DNA of 64,000 bases. Origin: Candidatus Zixiibacteriota bacterium. GTDB lineage: Bacteria; Zixibacteria; MSB-5A5; WJJR01; JAJRUJ01. Within the stretch, counting starts at the first letter, position 1. Each line of letters starts with the position of its first letter. The notes under the pieces were generated by a model. The model was given only the letters and a program-made list of their open reading frames with translations. It did no database searches and was not told where the DNA came from. Made by a program: the position numbers and the translations under genes. The stretch spans positions 1-64,000 of the forward strand of contig JAGVQM010000042.1 in NCBI GenBank assembly GCA_020051695.1, in the 5' to 3' direction. Below are positions 3,190 through 35,732 of this stretch, piece by piece.

Positions 3190-5487
3190 TTAGAATTCAA
3201 ATTCCAGGCCGATAACCGGCAATAGACTCCACTGATAGATGGTGTCCTGCTGTTGTTCGATTTCGTTCCAGTAATATGTCGAAATGTTCTTCCGGTTATA
3301 GACATTCCAAGCCGAGAAAAACATGGTCAGGTTCGAACCGCCGAAGTGGAAGCGCCGGTCGACCCGGACATTCAACGAATGATAATCGGGATAGCGTTCC
3401 ACATTGACTCGATTGCGGTCCAGCACCGAGCGGTTAATCAATTGCGAGGCCTCCAGATCCAGCGGTGTGTACGGCGGGCCGCCGCCGAAAATCCAGCGCA
3501 GGCTGAATTCCCATTTTTCGTTCGGCTTGTAGCCGCCCTCGGCGCTGAGGATCAGGCGGTTGTCGAACATCCGGTCGCGCCAGACGCCGTCCAGGCCTCG
3601 ATACCGCGAAACCGAATACGACCCCCCGAGCAGGCCGTACACGCCCGCGACCAGTTTTTTGCGGACGGTAAGCTCGATGCCGTATGATTCGGCTTTCCCT
3701 TCGTCCCGCAGTTGTTCGAAATTCCCGATATAGTAGCCGTAGGCCAGGCCGTCGACGACAAACAACTGCGGCTGGGCCGGGTCGAGCGGAAAATTGCTGT
3801 ACGATTTATAGTAGCCCTCAATAGTCAGTTTGGTATTGGCGGTCAATAAATAATCAGTACCCAGGACCGTATGCCAGGCCAGCGGGTCTTTCAAGTCTTT
3901 GTACGCTGCACGCTGCGAAATCAAAATCAGCGGCAAACTCTGGTAATAGATCCCCGCCGCCGCGTTGATTGCCATCCGGTCGGTCAGAGCATACGAACTG
4001 GAAAACCGTGGTGAAACATGGCCGTGCCTGTTGAACGAAAAATAGTCGTAGCGCACGCCCCAGGTCGAGGTCAGCCGGGGCCAGGGCCGCCAGATATAAC
4101 TGGCGAAGACCGCGGCCTTCGACGAGGTGATATAATCATCCACGACCAGCGCGGGTACCGTATCACCCAGAACATTGGTATATTCGGGGCTGGCATAATC
4201 GTAGTCGTTGGCAATCTGCTTGGCCTCAATGCCGAAATCGATGGCGTGGGATTCATTATACCGGCAATGATTGACATTCCGTAATTGGAGCGTCTGCTCC
4301 CGGGTATCCTCCTCGATCAGCGCCAGGTTCGATTTGGTCTCGAAAAACATGCCGTCCACGCCTGAACCAAACGTGGAAACCGACGTGAGTGAATACCCCC
4401 CGGTCCCCCAGAGATACCGCCAGGTGGCGCCCAGCGCATATTCCAAACCGTCATAGGTCCCGTAAACAACGTTGTCGTCTTCAACGGATTGGTCTTTTTC
4501 GAATTCGATATAATCGACACCTAGTACGCCGAGGGTGGTCAGCGTATGCCCTGGCGCAAGGTCATAGACAGCTTTTCCCTGATAATCGCTGTATTTGGGG
4601 GCAACGCCGGTGCCGATGGCATCTACCAGCAGATCAAGGAAGCTGCGGCGCACCGACAGCATCCAGGAACCCCGTGGTTTGGCCAGTGGCCCCTCAGCCA
4701 CAAAACCCACTCCGGCAAAATGCAGTTCCAACTGGCCGTCGAATTCCTCGCGGTTACCCTCGCGGAAAGTCAGGTCCATCACGGAGGACAACCGGTCGCC
4801 ATACAGCGCCGGGAAGCCGCCGGCGGAAAATGTCGCATCCTGAATGAAATCGTTGTTCAGCAGCCCGATCGGCCCGCCCGAGGACCCCTGAATCGGATAG
4901 TGGTTGATATTGGGTATTTCAATATTATCCAGGTAAAAGCTATTTTCTCCGGGGTTTCCACCGCGCACGACCAGGTTATTCAACTGATCGTCGATTTTGG
5001 CGATACTCGGCAGACTCAGCATGATGCGGCTGACATCCCCCGCCGAGCCGGGTGCGCGGCGGATTTCCTCGGCGGAGTAACTGGAGATGCTGGTCGGCTG
5101 GTCTTTCTCCTCGGTGAAGTAACCGGACTTGACGACAACATCACCGATTTCCACTGCCGTATACTCGAGTTCGATTTCGACAAAGGTGATCCGCTGCGAT
5201 TTGACAATAACGTCCGTCCGGGACTTCGTTTCATAGCCGATGGAGCGAAATTGCAGGGTATAGTTGCCGACCGGCAGGTCGGCGAGCGTAAAATTGCCCG
5301 AGGTATTCGTGGCAGCGCCGGTGGTTGTACCGACAATGAGAATGCTGGCACCCACGATTGGGGATTTCGTATCGGCATCGAGGACCAGACCTTTGATCGT
5401 CCCGGTCTTGGGCTGATCCTGGGCTAGGGCGCCCGTTTGGCCACTTGACAGCAGGAGCAACAACAACGGCAGGTATACCGATTTCAT
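3190..5487 (-). CDS. TonB-dependent receptor with carboxypeptidase-regulatory-like N-terminal domain
   Basis: Outer-membrane receptor of 765 residues from ATG 5487. It opens with a signal peptide (MKSVYLPLLLLLLSS), then a carboxypeptidase D regulatory-like beta-sandwich (from about GTIKGLVLDADTKSPIVGA), a plug domain with VVRGGNPGENSFYLDNIEIP, and a long barrel ending in an aromatic strand (GLEFEF). Such receptors import scarce ligands using TonB energy; the ligand cannot be read from sequence. The frame extends to a GTG at 5559 that overlaps the TAA of the upstream isomerase (5552-5554), so coupled initiation there is possible. I prefer 5487 because it gives a compact signal peptide, although its ribosome site is weak. 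No TonB/ExbB/ExbD genes are nearby. Confidence 0.85.
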   Translation of the reverse strand: MKSVYLPLLLLLLSSGQTGALAQDQPKTGTIKGLVLDADTKSPIVGASILIVGTTTGAATNTSGNFTLADLPVGNYTLQFRSIGYETKSRTDVIVKSQRITFVEIELEYTAVEIGDVVVKSGYFTEEKDQPTSISSYSAEEIRRAPGSAGDVSRIMLSLPSIAKIDDQLNNLVVRGGNPGENSFYLDNIEIPNINHYPIQGSSGGPIGLLNNDFIQDATFSAGGFPALYGDRLSSVMDLTFREGNREEFDGQLELHFAGVGFVAEGPLAKPRGSWMLSVRRSFLDLLVDAIGTGVAPKYSDYQGKAVYDLAPGHTLTTLGVLGVDYIEFEKDQSVEDDNVVYGTYDGLEYALGATWRYLWGTGGYSLTSVSTFGSGVDGMFFETKSNLALIEEDTREQTLQLRNVNHCRYNESHAIDFGIEAKQIANDYDYASPEYTNVLGDTVPALVVDDYITSSKAAVFASYIWRPWPRLTSTWGVRYDYFSFNRHGHVSPRFSSSYALTDRMAINAAAGIYYQSLPLILISQRAAYKDLKDPLAWHTVLGTDYLLTANTKLTIEGYYKSYSNFPLDPAQPQLFVVDGLAYGYYIGNFEQLRDEGKAESYGIELTVRKKLVAGVYGLLGGSYSVSRYRGLDGVWRDRMFDNRLILSAEGGYKPNEKWEFSLRWIFGGGPPYTPLDLEASQLINRSVLDRNRVNVERYPDYHSLNVRVDRRFHFGGSNLTMFFSAWNVYNRKNISTYYWNEIEQQQDTIYQWSLLPVIGLEFEF

Positions 5488-5551
5488 AATCGTCCGCAGC
5501 AATGTCCGGCAGACAGCCGGTTTTGCCTGGATCTGTTTCGCTGCGATGGAA

Positions 5552-6631
5552 TTAGTCACCGACTTTGCCCAACTCGGTTTTCAGATAATGTATTGCGGTG
5601 ATTGTCGTCGGATCGACACCGTTGAGGAAGGCCAGGTACAGACTTGTCCAATCGCCGAGCTGGATGATCGAGAACAACCGCTGGAGAGGGTTGTCGCCGG
5701 CTGCGTCGATCATTTCGACCGGCGTTTCCTGCTGTGTGAACAACTTGCGGACGATCTCGAAGCGCCGGGCGATTCGCGGGTGATCGTCGGCGCTGCGCAG
5801 GAAAACAGCCGTCAATATATCCATTGCATTTTTCGGCAAGCCCCAGCCGACGACTTCGTTATGGTTGAACTCCGGGGCTTCACCGGCCCAGGCCAGGTTT
5901 TTGGCGTTTTCGCAAAATTGACCTTTCCAGCGCAACGCGGCCACACTCATTGCCCCGGCCGCGCCGTAGATTACCGGGATCCGGCCCTTGATCATTGCCG
6001 CAAGCTGTTTGGCCGGATTTTGCTCGAAGGGGATCTCCGGGGCCAGTTGGTTGTTTCGCGACATCAGGAACCCGGCCAGTTCGTGCAATGCCGGAGCCGG
6101 ATCGGCGACCAGCCCGATGGTGCTCAACAGCAGCAGCAGGGAGGAGAACGAATATCCCAGCGCCGCCCGCGGTGGAAACCCGCCCGGCAAGCGCACCAGA
6201 GGCCAATCATGCGCCCGGGCTTTGTCGGCCAATGTCCCGCCCGAACTTAACGCAATGATGGGGCAACCCCGGTCGTGTGCCACGTCGACCGCGGCGAGGG
6301 TCTCTTCGGTGTTTCCCGAATAAGAGGAGGCGATGACCAGGGTCCGGGGTGAAGCGTAGTGCGGCAACCGATAATCCCGGACCACCTGCAGCGGCAGCGG
6401 CAGTGTCCCGGTCAGATGCGAGCGGACCAGGTCGCCACCGATCGCCGATCCGCCCATGCCCAGGATGATGATTTGGGAGAGGTCCGAGGACGGCCATTTC
6501 GGCCGGCCGACGGCAGCGGCCAGGGCCACACTCTCGCTGAATTGTCCCGGCAGCCGCGTAAGCAGTTCGGTCATGCCGGAGGGGTCGAGCGCCCGGCATT
6601 CAGTCACATTATCAAGAACAGGGTGCGGCAT
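5552..6631 (-). CDS. pgi: Bifunctional phosphoglucose/phosphomannose isomerase
   Basis: A SIS-fold sugar-phosphate isomerase of 359 residues. The first SIS domain has ILGMGGSAIGGDLVRS (about 54-69) and SSYSGNTEET, which bind the sugar phosphate. The second contains the family motif EFNHNEVVGW with the catalytic histidine. This short class, best known from archaea and some bacteria, interconverts glucose-6-P, fructose-6-P and mannose-6-P. It links glycolysis to the GDP-mannose-type precursors needed by the polysaccharide genes at 14-25 kb. It follows ptsI by 30 bases, and ATG 6631 has a CAGGATG ribosome site. No classical long Pgi is present in the window. Confidence 0.9.
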   Translation of the reverse strand: MPHPVLDNVTECRALDPSGMTELLTRLPGQFSESVALAAAVGRPKWPSSDLSQIIILGMGGSAIGGDLVRSHLTGTLPLPLQVVRDYRLPHYASPRTLVIASSYSGNTEETLAAVDVAHDRGCPIIALSSGGTLADKARAHDWPLVRLPGGFPPRAALGYSFSSLLLLLSTIGLVADPAPALHELAGFLMSRNNQLAPEIPFEQNPAKQLAAMIKGRIPVIYGAAGAMSVAALRWKGQFCENAKNLAWAGEAPEFNHNEVVGWGLPKNAMDILTAVFLRSADDHPRIARRFEIVRKLFTQQETPVEMIDAAGDNPLQRLFSIIQLGDWTSLYLAFLNGVDPTTITAIHYLKTELGKVGD

Positions 6632-6661
6632 GAGTTGTCATCCTGCCCGGCCATCACCAGT

Positions 6662-8461
6662 TTAACGCCACCGCTGGCCAAAATGGTCCCGATAGAATTC
6701 CGCAAGCAAATTGTCAACGTCGGTGACTGTTTCCGCGTGCAACACTTTGCGGGCCAGTTTCTTTGCCTCAGCGAACGATAGTTCGCGGACGACGGCTTTC
6801 AGACGGGGGACGACCGTCGGGTGAGCGGACAACTGGTCGACGCCCATGCCGATCAACAGCGGCAGGGCCAGCGGTTCGGAGGCGATTTCGCCGCAGACGG
6901 CAAAGCGGGTTTCGTTGCGGTGCGCGCATTCCAGCGCGTGCGCAATGCTGTGAATAATTGCCGGGTGAAATTGCTGGAATAAATGTGCAACGCGCGGATT
7001 GCCGCGGTCGACCGCCATCGTATATTGAATCAGATCATTGGTCCCCACGGAAAAAAAGTCGACCATTTTCGCCAGCGGTTCGGCGAGCCACACTGCGGCA
7101 GGGGTTTCGATCATGAGTCCGACCTGGACTTCGCCGACCTCATCGCCGCGCGCACACACTTCGCGGCAGGCCTCATCCAATAACAACAACGCCTCGGAGA
7201 CTTCCTCGACCGAGACAATCATCGGGAACATCACCCGAATATTGGTCCCGGCGGCCGCCCGCAGCAGTGCGCGCAGTTGCGCTTTAAACGGGGCCTTTTT
7301 TTGCAGACTGACCCGGATGGCCCGCCAGCCCAGCGCGGGGTTTTGTTCGACCGCACTCCGACCATCATCGAAATATTTGTCGCCGCCGAGGTCAAACGTC
7401 CGGATGGTCAGCGGCCGGGGAGCAAGAACCTGCGCCGCCTCCAAATACGTTTTATATTGTTCGTGCTCGGTGGGGTAGCGGCCCTGGCGCAAAAACAAAT
7501 ACTCAGTGCGATACAAACCCACGCCGCCGGCCCCGGCGGCAAGAACATCCTCCGCCTCGGCGGCCATATCGATATTGGCCAGCAGCTCGACAGAGTGCCC
7601 GTCGACGGTTTCCGCCGGGAGGTCGCGCAGGGCTGCCAGCTTTTTGGGCCAGGGAACAATCGCTTCCCGCTGTTTACGATCATAGACTTCCAGTGTCTCG
7701 GCGTCCGGCGCGATCGTGACCGATCCGGAATGACCATCCACGACGATCCGCGCCCCGAGCGGGATTTTGCTCACCGCATTGGCCACGCCGACCACCGCGG
7801 GGATGCGCAGCGATTTGGCCAGGAGAGTCGTGTGTGAAGTCTGCCCGCCGATTTCGGAGACAATGCCCAGAACGTTTTCCTTTTTCAGTCCGACGACGTC
7901 GCTGGGGGTTAGTGATGTGGCCACCAGAATGGACGGTTCCGCCAGATCGCCCAGCCCCATGGTCGGCAGCCCGAGCAGGTGGTTGATGACGCGGGCGTGA
8001 ACGGCTTCGATCTCCTGCCGCATCCCCCTGAGATAGGCGTCGGGGGAGGCGCTTAGCTTGGTCAGTGTGCCCTGGACGACGCGGTCAAAGGCGCATTCGG
8101 CTGCCGATTTTTTCTTTTCAATCTCTTCCCGCACCGTCGAATCGATTTCGGGGTCGGATAGAATCAGGATCTGGGCATCGAAAATCCGGGCCAGATTGTC
8201 GCCGATCATATCGCCGGCGCGTTCTTTGAGAACACTCAACTCCTGCCGGGTTATTGCCAACGCCTCAGCAAAACGCTTTTTTTCATTTTCGATTTTTTTA
8301 TTGGCGATGGTCCGCGCCGGGACATGCGGGGTTTTGGCGGCGAAGACAAAGGCCGGGCCGATGGCAATCCCCGGCGCGCCCGGGAAGCCGCGCAACACGC
8401 TTTCCGGGAGACGCGTCGGCGTTCGCCGGCCGCCACCCGAATGTGCCGGAACGCTTACCAT
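6662..8461 (-). CDS. ptsI: PTS enzyme I (phosphoenolpyruvate-protein phosphotransferase)
   Basis: A 599-residue enzyme I with the normal domain order. The HPr-binding and swivelling phosphohistidine domain carries GGQTSHTTLLAK with the phosphorylated His at 210. The C-terminal PEP-binding TIM barrel has SVGTNDLIQYTMAVDR and the catalytic-cysteine motif VCGE. It passes phosphate from PEP to HPr, whose gene lies 39 bases upstream. No enzyme II genes are in the window, so the phosphate acceptor may be regulatory or encoded elsewhere. The first 20 residues are rich in Pro, Arg and Gly and precede the usual enzyme I start, so the true start could be slightly downstream. Confidence 0.95.
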   Translation of the reverse strand: MVSVPAHSGGGRRTPTRLPESVLRGFPGAPGIAIGPAFVFAAKTPHVPARTIANKKIENEKKRFAEALAITRQELSVLKERAGDMIGDNLARIFDAQILILSDPEIDSTVREEIEKKKSAAECAFDRVVQGTLTKLSASPDAYLRGMRQEIEAVHARVINHLLGLPTMGLGDLAEPSILVATSLTPSDVVGLKKENVLGIVSEIGGQTSHTTLLAKSLRIPAVVGVANAVSKIPLGARIVVDGHSGSVTIAPDAETLEVYDRKQREAIVPWPKKLAALRDLPAETVDGHSVELLANIDMAAEAEDVLAAGAGGVGLYRTEYLFLRQGRYPTEHEQYKTYLEAAQVLAPRPLTIRTFDLGGDKYFDDGRSAVEQNPALGWRAIRVSLQKKAPFKAQLRALLRAAAGTNIRVMFPMIVSVEEVSEALLLLDEACREVCARGDEVGEVQVGLMIETPAAVWLAEPLAKMVDFFSVGTNDLIQYTMAVDRGNPRVAHLFQQFHPAIIHSIAHALECAHRNETRFAVCGEIASEPLALPLLIGMGVDQLSAHPTVVPRLKAVVRELSFAEAKKLARKVLHAETVTDVDNLLAEFYRDHFGQRWR

Positions 8462-9960: not shown

Positions 9961-12129
<2,169 letters not shown>

Positions 12130-12146
<17 letters not shown>

Positions 12147-13281
12147 GAAATTTCCGAAAACATGATTTGACCGTTTGGATGACCCGGTCTATTTCCGCTG
12201 TTTTCTGGTGCGAATACAACGGCAGACTCAGGATATTGTCCGTCACATAGTCAGTAATCGGCAATTGTTGGTTTTTCCGCCGGTATTCTCGGAAAACTTT
12301 CTGCCGGTGCACCGGCGGATAAAAATACTTGCGGGTATCGATGTGCTGTTCGGCCAGGAACGCGGCAAGATCGTCTCGCGTGAACCCCGCTCCGGCGCAC
12401 TCGGGAGCGGGGTCAATCAGGATTGAAAAATCCTTATACGATGACAGGCAATCTGGGGGGATTTTCTGGAAGGTCAAGCCGGGCAGGCCCGCCAGCCGGG
12501 TTTTGTACCGCTCGGCCAGTTTCCGCCGGCGTCCGGCCATTTGGAGGAGGCGCTGCAGCGCGGCCCAACCGAACACCGCGTTGAACTCGCTCATCCGCGC
12601 GTTCATTCCCACGATCCTGCAGTCGTAGTCGCCGGGATTGCCGTAATCGCGGGCGATTTTCAATTCTTTCGCCAACTCGGCGGAGCGGGTGGTGATAATT
12701 CCGCCTTCCCCCGCCGGGGCCAATTTGGTCGGGGACAGCGAAAATACCTCGGCATCGCCGTAATTTCCCAGCGGTTTGCCGCGATACGAGGCCCCAAACC
12801 CGTGCGCGGCATCGAAAATCAGCCGCAGGTTGTGTTTTTTCGCCACGCGGGTGAGGGCAGATACAGCAGCGGGGCAGCCAAAAACATGCACGGCGATGAT
12901 GGCCGAAGTCTTTTTGGTGATCAGGCGCTCGATGGATTTTGGGTCCGGATTGAATGTCTCCGGGTCGCAGTCGCAGAAAACCGGAGTGAGATTATTCCAC
13001 AACAACGGCAGGGCGCTGGCGAAAAAAGTGAATGATGGCACGATCACCTCGCCGGTCAGCCCCAACAGCCGGTTGACCAGCATTAAGCCGGAGGTCGCCG
13101 AGGAGACCGCCACTGCCTGCGGGACGCCCAGCAGTTTTTCCGCGCGTTGTTCGAGTTTGCGGACATATCCGGCGTTGGTCAAAAAGCCGCTCGCGGCGAC
13201 TTTTTTCAGGTGCGGCGCCACGACGGAAAACGGCGGGGTGCTGGGGCGGGTCAGGGGAATACGTGCGGGGTGTTTAGTCAT
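12130..13281 (-). CDS. DegT/DnrJ/EryC1-family PLP aminotransferase (second copy of a pair)
   Basis: A 383-residue paralogue of the next gene and only distantly similar to it. K186 in SPTKLAPAGEGG is the expected PLP lysine and D158 in IFDAAHGFG the ring-contacting aspartate. The start of a minus-strand series lies here: the 192 bases to the divergent gene at 13474 must carry promoters for both directions. The overlap with the downstream aminotransferase suggests the two act in one sugar pathway or as a heteromer, which I cannot test from sequence. The usual partners, such as a sugar-nucleotide dehydratase, are not adjacent. Confidence 0.87.
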
Positions 13282-13473
13282 TTATATTTTTCCTTCCACC
13301 AATTGTCCAATTTTGACCAGAAAGCATAATCCTTTGGCCCGGCGGGGTCAATCGGATTTACAAGATGGTGTCAGGTAAACGGATAGTCGATATTGGACGT
13401 TGTCTGGATGGTGAGATGATGGTTTCATAAAATACGCGATATGGTCCGGGACATTATTGGGTCAGGAAAGCAG

Positions 13474-14358
13474 ATGAGTGTCGCATACAAAACCGCCATC
13501 GCCTGTATTTTGCTCATTTTGGTCATCATATTGGGCAACAATCAATATCAGATACAGGATGTCGCAGAAAACATCGCAATCGCGTCGCCCGATCAATGGC
13601 GGTATCAGGCGGTACAAAATGACGACTGGAAATTTGAGGTTGGAATCCAAGATAAACCGTTCCTGCCGTATGAGACAATTTGGCTGGAAGTAACAGCAAC
13701 CAATATATCAGATACTTTATTAATGAAACCGATTATGAATCCTGGTGAGGTGAATTTGGAGGTGCAGATTCTTGATAAAGGCGGCAATCGGATGTATCCG
13801 CCGAACATGAAAACCTTTGTCGACTATGACTTTTTTCATTGGCCAACGATGAGACCGGGAGAATTCCAGCACAATTACCTCGATCTGCGAACGTATGATC
13901 GGGTGCCCGCCGAAATCATGCACTTGCCGCCAGGCCAGTATCATGCAAATATCAAATATAAACCATTTCCGCGGAATCTGTCCGCTGGAATAGTGAAAAC
14001 ATTGGATTCGATCAGTTGCCTATTTGAGGTTATACCGCCCCTGGGCGATGAGGTCGCAGCGTACGATTTATTCCTGGAATTTTTGGCAGAGTGGGAAACC
14101 GGCGTCATTACAATCCCGCCGGTGTTTTTCCAATTACAGGAGGAGTACCCGGCTGCGCGAAATACCAAATTCGCCTATGAATTTCTGTTATTTCGCTCCG
14201 GCAGGTTTTACAATTTGCCCAAAATGGAAAAGCATCAGTTGGCGGTGCTACGAAAACAGTATTTCGCAAAATACGCCGGGCAATTATGGCATCCCGACTG
14301 GAATAAACTCCGCGAGGTCCAGGTTATCGATAGTGCAGGGAATTGGGCGCCCAAGTAA
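13474..14358 (+). CDS. Unknown protein with N-terminal membrane anchor and beta-rich ectodomain
   Basis: I do not recognise a family. The 294-residue protein starts at ATG 13474, after AGGAAAG. An N-terminal hydrophobic segment (AIACILLILVIILG) acts as signal anchor or signal peptide. About 150 residues that look like an Ig-like beta sandwich follow (LPYETIWLEVTATNISDTLL, then VNLEVQILDKGGN). The C-terminal 90 residues look helical. It is probably periplasmic or surface-attached. The base composition is more AT-rich than its neighbours on both sides, and it is the only plus-strand gene in the first 27 kb, so it may be an insertion. Confidence 0.6.
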   Translation: MSVAYKTAIACILLILVIILGNNQYQIQDVAENIAIASPDQWRYQAVQNDDWKFEVGIQDKPFLPYETIWLEVTATNISDTLLMKPIMNPGEVNLEVQILDKGGNRMYPPNMKTFVDYDFFHWPTMRPGEFQHNYLDLRTYDRVPAEIMHLPPGQYHANIKYKPFPRNLSAGIVKTLDSISCLFEVIPPLGDEVAAYDLFLEFLAEWETGVITIPPVFFQLQEEYPAARNTKFAYEFLLFRSGRFYNLPKMEKHQLAVLRKQYFAKYAGQLWHPDWNKLREVQVIDSAGNWAPK

Positions 14359-14375
14359 ACTGTTGGTGTATTCTG

Positions 14376-15461
14376 CTACGCCAAATCCGTTTTGAGCTGC
14401 CGTACAATGTCGTTCGAGACAGCCTTTTTGGCAAAGATATTGTCGACAACTTTCCGTGGTTTGAACGGCTGCACCATCGCCCGTTTCAGTCGTCGTCCAT
14501 CAAATCCAACCAGCGTATTGTATCCGGCATCGACCAGCAAATTCCATTCAGTCACCGTGCGTACAGTCAGGCAGCGCACCCCTGCCCAATACGCTTCTTT
14601 TTGCACGCCGCCGGAGTCGGTGAGTACGGCATGGGCGTTGGCAATCAGCCACAGTGACGTTTGATGATTAACCGGCGGCAGAACTCTAATATCCGGCATG
14701 CGGGAGAGCCGGGCGAGCAGCTTGAATCGTCTCAGGTTTTTGCGGGTACGAGGGTGCAAAGGCAATACGATTGGCTTATCCAGAATTTCCAGCATGCCCA
14801 ATAGCCGCGCGAGGTTTTCAGGATCATCCACTGCTTCCGCCCGATGCAGCGTGATATAGTAGTACTCGCCCTCGGCAGGCGCCGGTTTGTCTGCGGGAAA
14901 ACCCGGGGGACGGCGTCGCGGCAGCCGAAAAGTCTCGGTCATCAAATCCCCGACCGGGCACACACCTTTGGTAATTCCCTCGGCTTTCAGGTTTCGGGCC
15001 GCTTCCTGTGTAGGGCAAAACAGCCAGCGGGAGAGATGATCGGCGACCACGCGGTTTTTTTCCTCGGCCATGCGTTTATCGAACGAGCGCAGGCCCGCCT
15101 CGACATGTCCCACGGGGATATTTCGTGCCGCCGCCGCCAGCGCTCCGGCCATGGTGGAAGTGGTATCGCCGAAAACCAGCACGGCGCTGGGTTTGGTTTT
15201 GCCAAGGTAAGCGTCCAGCCGTTCGACCATTTTCCCGAGTTGCGTACCGGGCGCACCCCGGCCGACATGCAAATTGACATCCGGCAGCCGCAATTGATAC
15301 TCGGCAAAGAAAGTATCCGACATCTCCCGGTCGAAATGCTGGCCGGTATGCACCACGCGGGAATCGAATGCCCGGTCGAGTTTGCGCAGCAACGCCGCCA
15401 GTTTGATAAACTGCGGCCGCGCGCCGACGACGGAGACAACTATGGGTTTTGCTTTGGCCAT
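14376..15461 (-). CDS. wecB: UDP-N-acetylglucosamine 2-epimerase family, WbpI-like
   Basis: A 361-residue non-hydrolysing sugar-nucleotide 2-epimerase. VVGARPQFIK and VHTGQHFD at the N-terminus, GHVEAGLRSFDKRMAEEKNR in the middle, and LTDSGGVQKEA near the UDP site are family hallmarks. The GARPQFIK form resembles WbpI-type enzymes, which act on UDP-2,3-diacetamido-glucuronate, more than WecB, which usually has GTRPEAIK. With the WbpB-, WbpD- and WbpE-like genes upstream this points to UDP-2,3-diacetamido-mannuronate synthesis. It is separated from those genes by the FKBP gene and a terminator, so it may have its own promoter within 15462-15561. Confidence 0.85.
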   Translation of the reverse strand: MAKAKPIVVSVVGARPQFIKLAALLRKLDRAFDSRVVHTGQHFDREMSDTFFAEYQLRLPDVNLHVGRGAPGTQLGKMVERLDAYLGKTKPSAVLVFGDTTSTMAGALAAAARNIPVGHVEAGLRSFDKRMAEEKNRVVADHLSRWLFCPTQEAARNLKAEGITKGVCPVGDLMTETFRLPRRRPPGFPADKPAPAEGEYYYITLHRAEAVDDPENLARLLGMLEILDKPIVLPLHPRTRKNLRRFKLLARLSRMPDIRVLPPVNHQTSLWLIANAHAVLTDSGGVQKEAYWAGVRCLTVRTVTEWNLLVDAGYNTLVGFDGRRLKRAMVQPFKPRKVVDNIFAKKAVSNDIVRQLKTDLA

Positions 15462-30462: not shown

Positions 30463-30480
30463 ACGTGGGGTGAGCACCGG
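30463..30480 (+). repeat. Left imperfect inverted repeat flanking the helicase segment
   Basis: ACGTGGGGTGAGCACCGG lies just after the TauE stop. It matches the reverse complement of 35653-35672 with only two single-base gaps. Whether it is an element end or two copies of an intergenic repeat is open. Confidence 0.6.
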
Positions 30481-30494
30481 CCACCCGAACGGCA

Positions 30495-30533
30495 GCACCC
30501 CATGGTCCCGGAGCAAGTCCGGGGCCGGGGTGC
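30495..30533. repeat. Long hairpin-forming sequence between the TauE and helicase genes
   Basis: GCACCCC (30495-30501) pairs with GGGGTGC (30527-30533). Inside it, CCCGGA (30507-30512) pairs with TCCGGG (30518-30523), with loop GCAAG. No T-tract follows, so it is not a classic terminator. Confidence 0.55.
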
Positions 30534-30566
30534 CTAACCTGCTCATAGCATGGAGACGATTATTAT

Positions 30567-30652: not shown

Positions 30653-33600
30653 ATGAATTCCTCAACGCCCGCAAGCCGAAACGAAAAAGCAATTCGACTA
30701 GTCGAATACCTGCTTCGATTGGCGTCATTGCGCACTAAGCTGATCCGCGACATTGAGTACTACAAGGAAAACGGAAATATCCTCTGGCTGTCGAATATTC
30801 CACATGAGCGGGGCTGCTTCACGCAGGCATGGGGACGCGATGAAGAACACGAGCCGGATGAATGGCTGGAAGTGCAGAAGCAACCGGAGCCGGAATTGCC
30901 CACCGTTCCCGCTCAGTTTAAGGATTGGGTGAATCTTCCGTCGCTCCGCAACAAAGGTGACCTGCCGGAACTCTTCCCGGAAATCACCCGGCAAATCCCG
31001 AATCCCGACTGGCGGGAAAAATCGGACCAGCCGGAAACTGTCCCATACACGGAACGCCTTGAGGATCATCCCGAGGTTCAGCGGGCATGGAATCGGTATG
31101 TCGAAGACAAATGGTTGCCGTGGACGGAAGAACACAATAGGTGGGAGAAAGTACACAAGGTCTATTCAGCGCTCTTCGCCATTCATCAAGAACAACTTCG
31201 GCTGGGCGAGGAATATGAGCTGGTACTTGGCTTGGGGTTGCTGACATGGCAGACGCCCAGTGGACAACGAGTCCGGCGTCATCTCGTTGTGGCTGACGCA
31301 ATTCTGGAGTTTGAAGCCCGTTTGGGGAAATTCACTGTCCATTCCCATACCGAGGGTTCTAAGCTGCGGCCCGAACTCGATATGCTGGATATTGAGGAAC
31401 AACCCGCGCGCGCCGAGGAAACCGCGAAGGTGTCACTTGCCTCTGCGGAAGACGACCCGTGGGAAAAAGACTGTATCGAAAGCGTCCTTAAGGCCTTGGT
31501 ACATTCGATCAACTCACAAGGCCATTATGACGATTCGCTGGAAGGGAAAAGCATCCGCGCCTCGGCGAAGCCCATCGTGGAATATGCTCCGGCTTTGATA
31601 CTGCGAAAGCGTTCCGCCAAAGGCCTTACCGAAACCTTGAGACGGATCAAGGAGCAGATCGAAAACGGCGAAGATATCCCCGGCGAATTCGCGGACCTTG
31701 CGGAAATCCGTCGGAAGGATGACCGCGAACCACCTGATGGGCCGCAAGAGACAAACGCCGCTTTTGACGGAGAGATCTTCTTCCCAAAACCGTCGAACGA
31801 GGAACAACGCCGGATTGTTGATAAGATACGAGCGGCAAGCGGCGTGCTCGTGCAAGGGCCGCCCGGCACGGGGAAATCCCATACCATTGCCAATCTAATT
31901 TGCCATCTACTCGCAACTGGAAACCGCATCTTGGTTACCGCAAAAACGCCAAGGGCGCTGCAAGTACTAGAAGGGCTCATTCCGCCGGAGTTGCGGCCCC
32001 TTTGCGTAAACTTGGTCGGTAGTGGATACAAGGAACGGCAATTTATGGAATCCAGTGTTAAGGGCATCCTACGAAAAATCGGGGAATGGAAAGAGGAACA
32101 CGTCAGGCGAGAGCGTGCAGAGCTTGAAAAGCGTCTACGCGAAATCCGCGAAGAGAAGTCAAAAGTCATCCGGTGGCTTCGCGATATTCGGGAATCTGAA
32201 ACGCATACCCAGTCAATAGCGGAAGGCAGCTATAGTGGCACGGCTGCCAGAATTGCCGAATCTGTCAACCGGGACAGGAATGCCTATGCGTGGTTTAAAG
32301 ACGTTGCTCACTTTTACGATTCTTGTCCCACTACCACGAGTGAATTGTGCTCTGCGGTCGCTACTCTGCGGGGGCTCACGCCGGATAAACGACAGGAGTT
32401 AAAGCTTGAATGGCCGCCTAATTTGCCGAGTATTGACGATATTTCGAAACTTTTCGACAAGGAAAGTCACGCCAAAGTCGAAGAAACCCAGATTGGGAAA
32501 GGTGCGGATGAACAAGTTGCTGGCATACTTTTGCCTTTTGATGGTGGTGCCATTGCGTCATTGGCCCAATGTCTTTCTGGAATACAGCGGGAACGGGCTA
32601 GAATTTTAGGTTTCTCATACGGATGGGTACCTGGTTTTTTGCGTGATGCAGTGGAAAATCGCCTATCGCGGTGGTTAGAGCGATCCAGCATGACGTATAA
32701 AGCCATAAACAGTATAGGTCTGCGAGATACTGTACATATTATTGCATGCCCGGCTTGTGGCCGTGATAACCGCGTACGCCCGCACTCAATTCGTGAAATC
32801 CCTGTTTGTGGATCTTGCCACGCCAGGATCATTGACGATGACAGACTACAATTGGATGGAATGAAGGCGACAACGCCGCCGAATCTTGAGTTGATGAATT
32901 TTGTCGCAGATGTCGACAAAGTAAATTTGGAACTTCCCAACGAAATCAATTCTGAGTCATTGCAGGCCGATGCAGAAATCTTGAAAGAGCATTTCGAGCA
33001 AGGTGGCAAAATCGGTTGGCGTTGGTTTCGTCCGCGCGTGGTCAAAAACCGTGAATACGTATTGAACATTCGTGTGAATGGACAGCGTTGCACCTCACCG
33101 GAGCATTTATCATTATTGCTCGATGTTCTGACTGTGCAAAAAGCCCTTCAAAGCGCATGGGATGTATGGGTGACGTGTGATACCCGGGTTACTGGCTCTT
33201 ATTCATTGCAGCTGCAAGAACTATTGAATCGCTGTATGGTACTGGATGACGCACTCAAATTTGTTGCACTCATTGAAAAAGCACGGCAAGAGATCGTCAA
33301 ATTTCCGCAACTCACTGAGCCAATATGGGATGATCATAGCCGTGTGGCGGAGTTCGTGGCATCGTGCAATCTTGCCCTAGCGCGACAGAGTCGGCTTGCA
33401 GCGCAGGCGGAGATACGGCAATTTGAACGGGATTTGTCATTATTCTGTGCGCAAAATGACGCACATCCGATTGTGAGTGAGGCTTTAGAGTCAATCAAAA
33501 TGCGTGATATAATCGGCTTCGCCCGTTTCTGGAAGAGAATGCAAGAATTGGATGAACAACGAACTCGAATCAATAAGTTGGATGAATATTTGTCGAAACT

Positions 33601-35623
33601 GCATTCAACTCTGCCGAAATTCACGGATGAACTGTGTAAGACCTCCGGGGAATCCTATTGGGATGATCGCACCGCCCAGTTCACAAATGCTTGGCATTGG
33701 GCGCAAGCGCAATATTGGATTGATAATTACTTAAGGGAAGGAGATGCCACAAGCTTGTCCAAGCGTGCCAAGCAGATTGAAGACGAGATTGACTACTGTT
33801 TATGCGAGTTGGCGTCTTCTTATGCATGGGGATTCTGTTTCAAACGGATGGAAAGGAGGCACCGTCGACACTTGGAGGCGTGGCAGCAGGAAATGAGACG
33901 GTTTGGAAAGGGAACTGGAAAACATGCGGCACATCATCGGCGCGAAGCGCAACAGCACCTTAACAAATGCCGTGAAGCGGTTCCTGCATGGGTTATGCCG
34001 TTACACCGGGTCTGGGATACGGTGGACCCAGTGCCGGGGATGTTTGATGTCATAATCGTTGACGAAGCGTCTCAATGTGGTGTCGAGGCCCTTCCGCTTT
34101 TCTATCTAGGTAAGAAGATATTGATTGTTGGAGATGACAAGCAGATTAGCCCGGATGCTGTTGGCGTGCCTCGCGATGCGGTTTTTTATTTAATGAGAGA
34201 ATTTCTCCATGATTTTGAGTATCAATCGTCTTTTGATGTTGAAAGCAGCCTGTTTGGTCATGGCAGACTCCGCTATGGAACTCGGCTCATTAACCTGCGG
34301 GAACACTTCCGCTGCATGCCTGAGATTATCCGCTTCAGCAACGATCTGTGTTATTCCGACACGCCATTAATCCCCTTACGACAATATGGGCGGAATCGAC
34401 TAAGACCCATAAACCATATCTTTGTGGAAGGCGGGTATCGTGAAGGAAGCGGCAATCGTACGATCAATCGGCCTGAAGCCGACGCCATTGTCAAAAAGAT
34501 TGTCGAGTTGTGCGGTGATCGGCGCTACGATGGCAAGACAATGGGAGTTGTTGTACTCCAGGGAGATGCACAGGCGGCATTAATCGAGGGTCAATTGCTT
34601 GAGCGATTGGGAGCCGAAGAGATGGAGCGGAGGCGGCTTATTTGTGGCAATCCCTATAGTTTCCAAGGTGATGAACGTCATATCGTGTTTCTTTCATTGG
34701 TAGCGGCCAGTAACGAGAGAATCGGGCCATTCACGAAAGCAGCTGATGAAAGGCGCTTTAACGTTGCGGCCAGTAGAGGGCAAGATCAGATATGGCTGTT
34801 CCATTCAGTGCGCCGTGAAGATCTAAGTACAACGGATTTGCGGCGGAAGCTGTTAGAATTCTTCGAGGATACTAAGCCGTCGCAATTAGCCGGGATAGAT
34901 ATAATCGAACTGGAGCGCAAGGCCGAGCAAGAAAATCGTACAATTGTAAAGCCGCCGGGACCATTTGACAGCTGGTTTGAGGTCGACGTCGCATTGGAAT
35001 TACTGAGAAAAGGATTTGCCGTTAATCCTCAATTCGAGGTTGCCGGTAAGCGTATCGACCTAGTAGTTGAGGGCGGCCAAACGCGCTTGGCGGTTGAATG
35101 CGACGGCGACCATTGGCATGGCGCCGACCGTTACGAGGCGGACATGCAACGTCAACGGCAACTTGAACGTTGCGGTTGGGAATTCTTCCGTGTTCGTGAA
35201 TCGGCCTTTTATTTAAACAAGGAGGAAGCATTCAGGGGTCTGTGGCGCATGTTGGAGGAGAGGAGCATCTATCCTCATAAGGGCGAAGAGGATACTGCTG
35301 AGGAAACAAGCGAGCCAAACGACGCAGAACCGGAAAGTATAGAGTTACTCAGGACCGGGGACGATATTGTGCCGATTCAAAGCAATGGAACCCCGGACGA
35401 GTCTATCAAGGTTCGGATAGGCTCAACGGTCGTTTATGTCGATGAGGATGACGGGAGAGAATGCCAAGCCTTGATTACCAGCGGTAGTTCCAACCCGGAC
35501 TGGGGTACGATTAATGCCAATACGCCCATTGCCAAAGCGCTTCTCGGTGCGACGGTCGGTCAAGTTGTTGTTGCGCATCGTCCCTTAGGCCCCGTCAGAT
35601 TAAGGGTCATTAAAGTCAGCTGA
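30653..35623 (+). CDS. Giant SF1 helicase fused to a Vsr/DUF559-like nuclease and a GreA/GreB-like tail
   Basis: A 1,656-residue cytoplasmic protein. About 380 N-terminal residues match nothing I know. Walker A GPPGTGKS is at 402-409. A long charged, coiled-coil-like insert and a zinc ribbon (C699, C702, C719, C722) split the helicase core. Motif II is VDEASQ (D1137-E1138), motif III GDDKQ (1160-1164), and later motifs NPYSFQGDERH and NVAASRGQDQ complete an SF1 core. A PD-(D/E)xK nuclease follows, with D1469 and ECDGDHWH (E1482, D1484). The last 65 or so residues resemble the GreA/GreB C-terminal fold. Third positions are visibly more AT-rich than in neighbouring genes. Large helicase-nuclease fusions of this sort are common in anti-phage defence islands; defence is inferred, and I cannot name the system. 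Confidence 0.85.
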   Translation: MNSSTPASRNEKAIRLVEYLLRLASLRTKLIRDIEYYKENGNILWLSNIPHERGCFTQAWGRDEEHEPDEWLEVQKQPEPELPTVPAQFKDWVNLPSLRNKGDLPELFPEITRQIPNPDWREKSDQPETVPYTERLEDHPEVQRAWNRYVEDKWLPWTEEHNRWEKVHKVYSALFAIHQEQLRLGEEYELVLGLGLLTWQTPSGQRVRRHLVVADAILEFEARLGKFTVHSHTEGSKLRPELDMLDIEEQPARAEETAKVSLASAEDDPWEKDCIESVLKALVHSINSQGHYDDSLEGKSIRASAKPIVEYAPALILRKRSAKGLTETLRRIKEQIENGEDIPGEFADLAEIRRKDDREPPDGPQETNAAFDGEIFFPKPSNEEQRRIVDKIRAASGVLVQGPPGTGKSHTIANLICHLLATGNRILVTAKTPRALQVLEGLIPPELRPLCVNLVGSGYKERQFMESSVKGILRKIGEWKEEHVRRERAELEKRLREIREEKSKVIRWLRDIRESETHTQSIAEGSYSGTAARIAESVNRDRNAYAWFKDVAHFYDSCPTTTSELCSAVATLRGLTPDKRQELKLEWPPNLPSIDDISKLFDKESHAKVEETQIGKGADEQVAGILLPFDGGAIASLAQCLSGIQRERARILGFSYGWVPGFLRDAVENRLSRWLERSSMTYKAINSIGLRDTVHIIACPACGRDNRVRPHSIREIPVCGSCHARIIDDDRLQLDGMKATTPPNLELMNFVADVDKVNLELPNEINSESLQADAEILKEHFEQGGKIGWRWFRPRVVKNREYVLNIRVNGQRCTSPEHLSLLLDVLTVQKALQSAWDVWVTCDTRVTGSYSLQLQELLNRCMVLDDALKFVALIEKARQEIVKFPQLTEPIWDDHSRVAEFVASCNLALARQSRLAAQAEIRQFERDLSLFCAQNDAHPIVSEALESIKMRDIIGFARFWKRMQELDEQRTRINKLDEYLSKLHSTLPKFTDELCKTSGESYWDDRTAQFTNAWHWAQAQYWIDNYLREGDATSLSKRAKQIEDEIDYCLCELASSYAWGFCFKRMERRHRRHLEAWQQEMRRFGKGTGKHAAHHRREAQQHLNKCREAVPAWVMPLHRVWDTVDPVPGMFDVIIVDEASQCGVEALPLFYLGKKILIVGDDKQISPDAVGVPRDAVFYLMREFLHDFEYQSSFDVESSLFGHGRLRYGTRLINLREHFRCMPEIIRFSNDLCYSDTPLIPLRQYGRNRLRPINHIFVEGGYREGSGNRTINRPEADAIVKKIVELCGDRRYDGKTMGVVVLQGDAQAALIEGQLLERLGAEEMERRRLICGNPYSFQGDERHIVFLSLVAASNERIGPFTKAADERRFNVAASRGQDQIWLFHSVRREDLSTTDLRRKLLEFFEDTKPSQLAGIDIIELERKAEQENRTIVKPPGPFDSWFEVDVALELLRKGFAVNPQFEVAGKRIDLVVEGGQTRLAVECDGDHWHGADRYEADMQRQRQLERCGWEFFRVRESAFYLNKEEAFRGLWRMLEERSIYPHKGEEDTAEETSEPNDAEPESIELLRTGDDIVPIQSNGTPDESIKVRIGSTVVYVDEDDGRECQALITSGSSNPDWGTINANTPIAKALLGATVGQVVVAHRPLGPVRLRVIKVS

Positions 35624-35681: not shown

Positions 35682-35705
35682 AAAAGGCGGCCGAGGCCGC
35701 CTTTT
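35682..35705. terminator. Bidirectional terminator between the helicase and ino1
   Basis: A perfect 11-bp stem (AAAAGGCGGCC/GGCCGCCTTTT, loop GA) has A-tract and T-tract arms, so it can end transcripts from both converging genes. Confidence 0.92.
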
Positions 35706-35732
35706 CTGATGCCGATATTTTATTTGTCGGGA

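Follow-up and report, generated by a model that had tools for sequence, protein, structure and literature searches.

In a 64,000-nucleotide window of a Candidatus Zixiibacteriota genome (assembly GCA_020051695.1, contig JAGVQM010000042.1, positions 1 to 64,000 of the forward strand), we identified an apparently recently acquired gene whose product joins an SF1 helicase, a Vsr-like nuclease and a GreA/GreB C-terminal domain (GreA-C), and whose relatives have exchanged the tail that follows the nuclease. We lean toward reading it as a horizontally mobile anti-invader helicase-nuclease whose exchangeable tail would select the target, here probably the host RNA polymerase (RNAP).

Domain architecture and motifs

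The open reading frame begins with ATG, has no internal stops and occurs as one copy in the 3.53 Mb assembly. Its parts are as follows (window coordinates).

30653-35623, + strand: whole gene, helicase-nuclease-GreA-C fusion (1656 aa)
30653-31780, + strand: conserved N-terminal domain, alpha/beta with a 48-residue helix at 140-187 (residues 1-376)
31793-32200, + strand: AAA_11, SF1 helicase N-lobe with Walker A (residues 381-516; Pfam, above the curated cut-off)
32201-33982, + strand: helicase insert (residues 517-1110)
32744-32845, + strand: zinc-ribbon insertion (residues 698-731; C699, C702, C719, C722; Pfam matches sub-threshold only)
34061-34798, + strand: motif II (DEASQ, residues 1137-1141) and SF1 C-lobe AAA_12 (residues 1198-1382; Pfam, above the curated cut-off)
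34976-35254, + strand: MTES_1575/Vsr-like nuclease (residues 1442-1534; Pfam, 98.6 bits against a cut-off of 38.2)
35255-35407, + strand: linker, mostly predicted disordered, low pLDDT (residues 1535-1585)
35408-35620, + strand: GreA/GreB C-terminal domain including the N1624-T-P1626 loop (residues 1586-1656; Pfam, 47.1 bits against 26.9)

With Pfam matches above cut-offs and intact motifs, this architecture bears out an earlier sequence-only reading, which had described an SF1 helicase with an insert, a Vsr-type nuclease and a GreA/GreB C-terminus. Walker A (GPPGTGKS, residues 402-409), motif II and motifs V/VI are all intact in the alignment, and the helicase, its core interrupted by the long insert at residues 517-1110, is of the Upf1/Sen1 type within SF1, Sen1 and Upf1 being the closest solved helicases by sequence. 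The putative nuclease has the acidic residues E1443, D1469, E1482, D1484 and D1486, of which E1443, D1469, E1482 and D1486 are invariant across 46 sequences, and its fold resembles the I-Bth0305I catalytic domain (TM 0.79 on the target). AlphaFold predicts both the nuclease and the GreA-C domain confidently, with a low-confidence linker between them.

The same reading had assigned the first ~380 residues to no family and proposed structure prediction of the N-terminal part and the tail. A Pfam search of residues 1-385 matched no family, comparison of the domain with the PDB by sequence and by fold gave nothing better than E 0.4, and its top viral match was weak (a phage AAA protein, E 2e-3). 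AF2 nevertheless predicts this domain confidently (46 sequences, pLDDT 85.7), and the tail was predicted as a GreA-C fold.

The helicase insert differs most from the relatives. Residues 551-1000 are far less conserved in the window protein than among relatives, with ~35% identity to them versus ~50-67% among the relatives themselves. As for the zinc ribbon claimed earlier, its four cysteines are present, but its Pfam matches remain sub-threshold and no aligned relative has it. Along the gene, GC3 is lowest at residues 622-1035 (0.435-0.46) and highest in the first 414 residues (0.60). Given this divergent, low-GC3 middle part and a zinc ribbon unique among aligned relatives, the gene looks mosaic as well as foreign.

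Acquisition at the window locus

The upstream neighbor is a TauE-like permease gene and the downstream neighbor a convergent inositol-phosphate-synthase-like gene, so that the placement between housekeeping genes described earlier was roughly right. Thymidylate kinase and inositol-phosphate synthase genes flank the region, separated in the window by 7.8 kb with four genes; the same two flank genes are adjacent in all six order-level relatives (G001, G002, G003, G004, G005 and G008), with a gap of ~200-350 bp in five of them. The helicase-nuclease gene is absent from the locus in all six, in the very comparison with relatives that had been suggested alongside the claim of recent acquisition. 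Within the phylum, the core could be clearly recognized, at least in part, in 4 of 132 genomes, one of which is the genome that contains the window; in G087, the copy does not lie beside the thymidylate kinase and inositol-phosphate synthase genes. The AT-rich codon use claimed for the gene was confirmed on 464 kb of the genome, where its GC3 is 0.519 versus 0.672 +/- 0.071 in 229 sampled ORFs (10th lowest) and its codon distance is the third largest among 57 long ORFs. Recent acquisition is thus supported by an empty site in relatives and by atypical codon use.

Separately, we observed that the G001 gap (L118, about 10588-13391, G001:C86) measures ~2.8 kb and holds a transposase-like and a lipoprotein-like ORF, and that the space between the thymidylate kinase and inositol-phosphate-synthase genes appears to be a hot spot for insertions. 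A further window ORF (13441-14358, + strand) has a GC3 of 0.54, among the twelve lowest sampled, and was negative in the PADLOC scan.

Two hairpins lie around the gene.

30471-30545, no strand: GC-rich upstream hairpin, one occurrence in the genome, not a repeat
35682-35706, no strand: hairpin with a T run between the gene and the convergent gene, a probable shared terminator (by sequence and fold)

Two other features that had been taken as marks of acquisition were not confirmed. Between the flanks, no direct or inverted repeats longer than chance were found that could mark an insertion, the upstream hairpin being unique in the genome; and the promoter scan gave 5 promoter-like sites versus 4.8 expected, with an exact TTGACA at about 30567 but no acceptable -10. 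The neighbor scan found no defense genes beside the window gene, its sole candidate match being the thymidylate kinase, and no phage remnant adjoins it.

Family distribution and tail exchange

Relatives occur in about 16 phyla and are carried on chromosomes, plasmids and phages (63 loci in a genome-contig scan, several hundred partial matches in a plasmid collection), with closely similar cores in Pseudomonadota, Synergistota, Planctomycetota, Nitrospirota, Chlorobiota, Verrucomicrobiota and others. The N-terminal parts of close relatives are mostly ~70-80% identical to that of the window protein. Most loci have the core in full (residues 1 to about 1541), while the part after the nuclease varies. 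GreA-C tails are found in the window protein, L033, L038, L040 and L056 and, more distantly, in L030 and L091 (the latter below the Pfam cut-off); a Rhizobium plasmid DUF4011-type protein (L125) likewise ends in nuclease and GreA-C. The commonest tail among the closest relatives is winged-helix-like, a label that comes from its helix pattern, with no Pfam match, and others end in a DUF3320 tail. At L084 the tail (14200-14719) matches the Lsr2 DNA-binding domain below the Pfam cut-off, and L059 has a look-alike (about 7150-7450); Lsr2 is a xenogeneic silencer, and Lsr2-like tails would be suited to recognizing AT-rich DNA of foreign origin. Tail-less relatives exist (L049, L053 and L041), and the tail is therefore not indispensable.

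Some candidate assignments were discarded. Scoring L035, L037, L039 and L054 as tail-less was rejected, as their frames are interrupted and a winged-helix tail lies past the stop, and the labels of three of the four were corrected in the tree ahead of the final AU test. What looked like a GreA tail in Sphingomonas (L126) had no Pfam support and was rejected. Interrupted frames, split over at least two ORFs, occur in 16 of 68 loci (e.g., L035, L044, L048, L087), part of which may stem from assembly error or second copies, and the Rhodococcus loci L073 and L074 each hold two family copies in close succession.

On the core tree, a single clade of the five close GreA-tailed proteins was rejected (p-AU 0.0028), so that GreA tails are polyphyletic there, consistent with an exchange of tails among relatives. 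In the first core tree, drawn before the labels were corrected, L091 with its distant GreA-C tail groups with support as sister to a protein that ends in DUF3320. A core tree can be distorted by recombination inside the core; a pair of phages provides a case independent of the tree.

A natural tail swap between two phages

On each of two related viral contigs, L150 and L151, genes for portal, minor head, neck and major head proteins are present along with a DNA methyltransferase gene, and the helicase-nuclease occupies the same position in the head-gene cluster of both. Their DNA is ~75% identical end to end except for the tail-coding part. The differing stretch (bases 12385 to 12817 in L150, 12385 to 12865 in L151) is exactly the tail-coding part, encoding GreA-C in L150 and a winged-helix-like tail in L151. 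Identity runs at ~65-90% along the gene, falls to ~45% exactly at the tail and recovers in the next head gene. Immediately before the junction it reaches 95-98%, a near-identical stretch peculiar to this pair; a clade-wide recombination hot spot at the junction was considered and rejected, fourfold-site identity not being raised there.

An HTH_17/excisionase-like gene overlaps the helicase-nuclease start by 4 bp in both phages (at 7645-8004 in L150, with the DNA methyltransferase gene at 5173-7569; L151 likewise) and also precedes L033 and L034, suggesting a possible regulator or partner.

These contigs bear on the idea that the gene is a phage-borne interference gene for phage or plasmid competition, with bacterial copies as a remnant of prophage traffic. 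L150 and L151 are phage sequences, L033 and L038 are fragments of phages of this kind, and part of a minor-head gene still adjoins the L056 copy, yet many relatives sit on chromosomes or plasmids with no detected phage genes, one lies within a BREX operon, and the window copy is free of any neighboring phage remnant; we consider this origin improbable.

Defense context of the family

The sequence-only reading had placed the gene in anti-phage defense. Its relatives' contexts agree, but no defense genes were found beside the window gene itself. In L043 (7052-17660), a family member with a winged-helix-like tail is part of a BREX operon. It has an SNF2-type helicase on one side and PglZ and BrxA on the other, and it overlaps PglZ, which BrxA follows. 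Next after L040 comes a Fic protein that matches the SoFic model; RloB and AAA genes lie close to L091. The survey of homologs' neighbors proposed earlier (96 ORFs) turned up defense matches at several loci, which, with no matched control, we treat as context and not as enrichment.

In profile searches against defense models, the nearest matches among curated models were to anti-phage proteins (PDC-S37, ProA, MkoC and Hhe); scores against named models fall far below curated cut-offs. The best PADLOC match was PDC-S37 (190 bits, best stretch residues 737-1562); the NCBIfam models ProA and Hhe scored 185 versus 1500 and 123 versus 2000 bits, and Mokosh (MkoA/MkoC) matched over the helicase part only, with no full-length match. 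In the open-access literature, we found no published phage assay of any family member. Overall, the family context of a BREX operon, phages, plasmids and patchy cross-phylum transfer suggests a role in defense.

The GreA-C tail and RNA polymerase

The tail matches GreA_GreB (PF01272) at 53.6 bits in a whole-genome profile search, and its FKBP-like fold matches GreA, Gfh1 and GreB (Foldseek E 1.2e-7 to 8e-4, prob 1.00). The docking loop N-S/T-P is kept, N1624 and P1626 corresponding to N123 and P125 of E. coli GreA (residues counted by hand), and its N and P are invariant in 8 GreA-C tails from four core lineages. In Gre factors, the globular domains bind the beta' rim helices of RNAP, and in GreA the 121-125 region takes part in this binding, which S121P lowers (PMC7527559). 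As a GreA C-terminal domain lacking the coiled coil, the tail probably docks on these beta' rim helices. Against such docking, the coiled coil and the globular domain of E. coli GreA both seem necessary for specific RNAP binding (PMC7527559), and in the window protein the acidic-tip N-terminal coiled coil of GreA/GreB transcript-cleavage factors is absent, GreA-C being preceded by nuclease and linker. The earlier suggestion that the tail could tie the nuclease to RNAP gains weight from GreA-C tails having been acquired more than once with the N-S/T-P loop kept, but is still an inference.

The tail could instead serve an anti-invader helicase-nuclease as a regulator, binding RNAP or another partner and either keeping the nuclease inactive or sensing phage takeover of transcription and triggering cell suicide. 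Such a role would fit the description by Kaur et al. 2021 (PMC8195603) of GreA/B-C as a module that senses invaders and is paired with variable effectors, the disordered linker on which the tail sits and the existence of tail-less relatives. DNA-binding tails (winged helix, Lsr2-like) at the same position suit targeting better than RNAP sensing, and we regard regulation as unlikely.

A horizontally acquired, non-defense factor of housekeeping type, acting in transcription-replication conflicts or RNAP recycling like HelD, UvrD or Mfd, is less likely still. Sen1, one of the closest solved helicases along with Upf1, acts on RNA polymerase II. In HelD, also an SF1 NTPase, the Gre-like N-terminal region enters the RNAP secondary channel (PMC7749165). 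The patchy distribution in the phylum (4 of 132 genomes), the phage and BREX contexts, the attached nuclease, the turnover of tails and the interrupted copies (16 of 68 loci) all speak against such a factor.

Proposed mechanism

In the targeting mechanism that we prefer, the protein would be a stand-alone effector in which the Upf1/Sen1-like SF1 motor translocates along nucleic acid while the Vsr/EDxHD-fold nuclease, held beside the motor, cuts invader nucleic acid. A flexible linker would bear the exchangeable C-terminal targeting domain. The GreA-C (FKBP-like) tail would dock on the beta' rim helices of RNAP, which may bring the helicase-nuclease to foreign DNA that is being actively transcribed or is stalled, or to R-loops on it; winged-helix or Lsr2-type tails may bring relatives straight to DNA. 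Extended more tentatively to the whole family, a step we rate at somewhat under an even chance, this would make it a group of single-protein immune helicase-nucleases that pick prey by swapping a C-terminal cassette, with RNAP (via GreA-C) as one address and winged-helix/Lsr2-type DNA binders as others, and with phages re-tailing the gene at a fixed accessory site.

An open question in the field is how single-protein helicase-nuclease defenses recognize DNA as foreign rather than their own. If the tail is the addressing part, this family supplies natural swaps in which the rest of the protein stays homologous, among them the phage pair with genes that differ mainly at the tail, and the question can then be put to a direct test. 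Coupling a nuclease to transcription would be an unusual way to tell self from non-self.

Comparison with known systems

Among defense models, PDC-S37, a PADLOC candidate single-gene defense family for which we found no tested function, shares the order of SF1 C-lobe and nuclease, but its match stops before the GreA tail. ProA (NF058533), Hhe (NF042953, DUF4011) and Mokosh MkoC/MkoA share the SF1 helicase core, and the ProA and Hhe models cover the nuclease region too; the window protein differs in having no DUF4011 and another N-terminal region, and the matches stop short of GreA-C. The MTES_1575 nuclease with DUF3320-type winged helices was defined by Anantharaman et al. 2013 (PMC3710099). 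Proteins of that type share the nuclease family and end in a winged helix that overlaps DUF3320, a feature also seen in several relatives, whereas the prototype has extra HEPN and transglutaminase domains and GreA-C is unmentioned there (PMC3710099).

On the transcription side, GreA, GreB and Gfh1 share the GreA-C fold and loop, but the window protein is without the catalytic coiled coil. HelD likewise joins an SF1 NTPase to a Gre-like part and shows that such a combination can work on RNAP (PMC7749165), although its Gre-like part is a coiled-coil arm and it has no nuclease.

Also related are the TPR-GreA/B-C-PIN conflict proteins, stand-alone predicted counter-invader proteins in which GreA/B-C has variable partners (PMC8195603) and was predicted by Kaur et al. 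2021 to be an RNAP-targeting module (PMC8195603). There GreA/B-C is constant and is accompanied by a PIN RNase and an N-terminal effector that varies, whereas in the window family the helicase-nuclease is constant and GreA-C variable; Pfam matched neither TPR nor PIN domains in the window protein. In the main texts of the open-access literature, we found no paper on a helicase-nuclease-GreA-C fusion or on exchange of its tail. GreA-C has thus already been predicted in conflict proteins of another architecture, while the tail swap between helicase-nucleases and the natural phage pair appear to be new.
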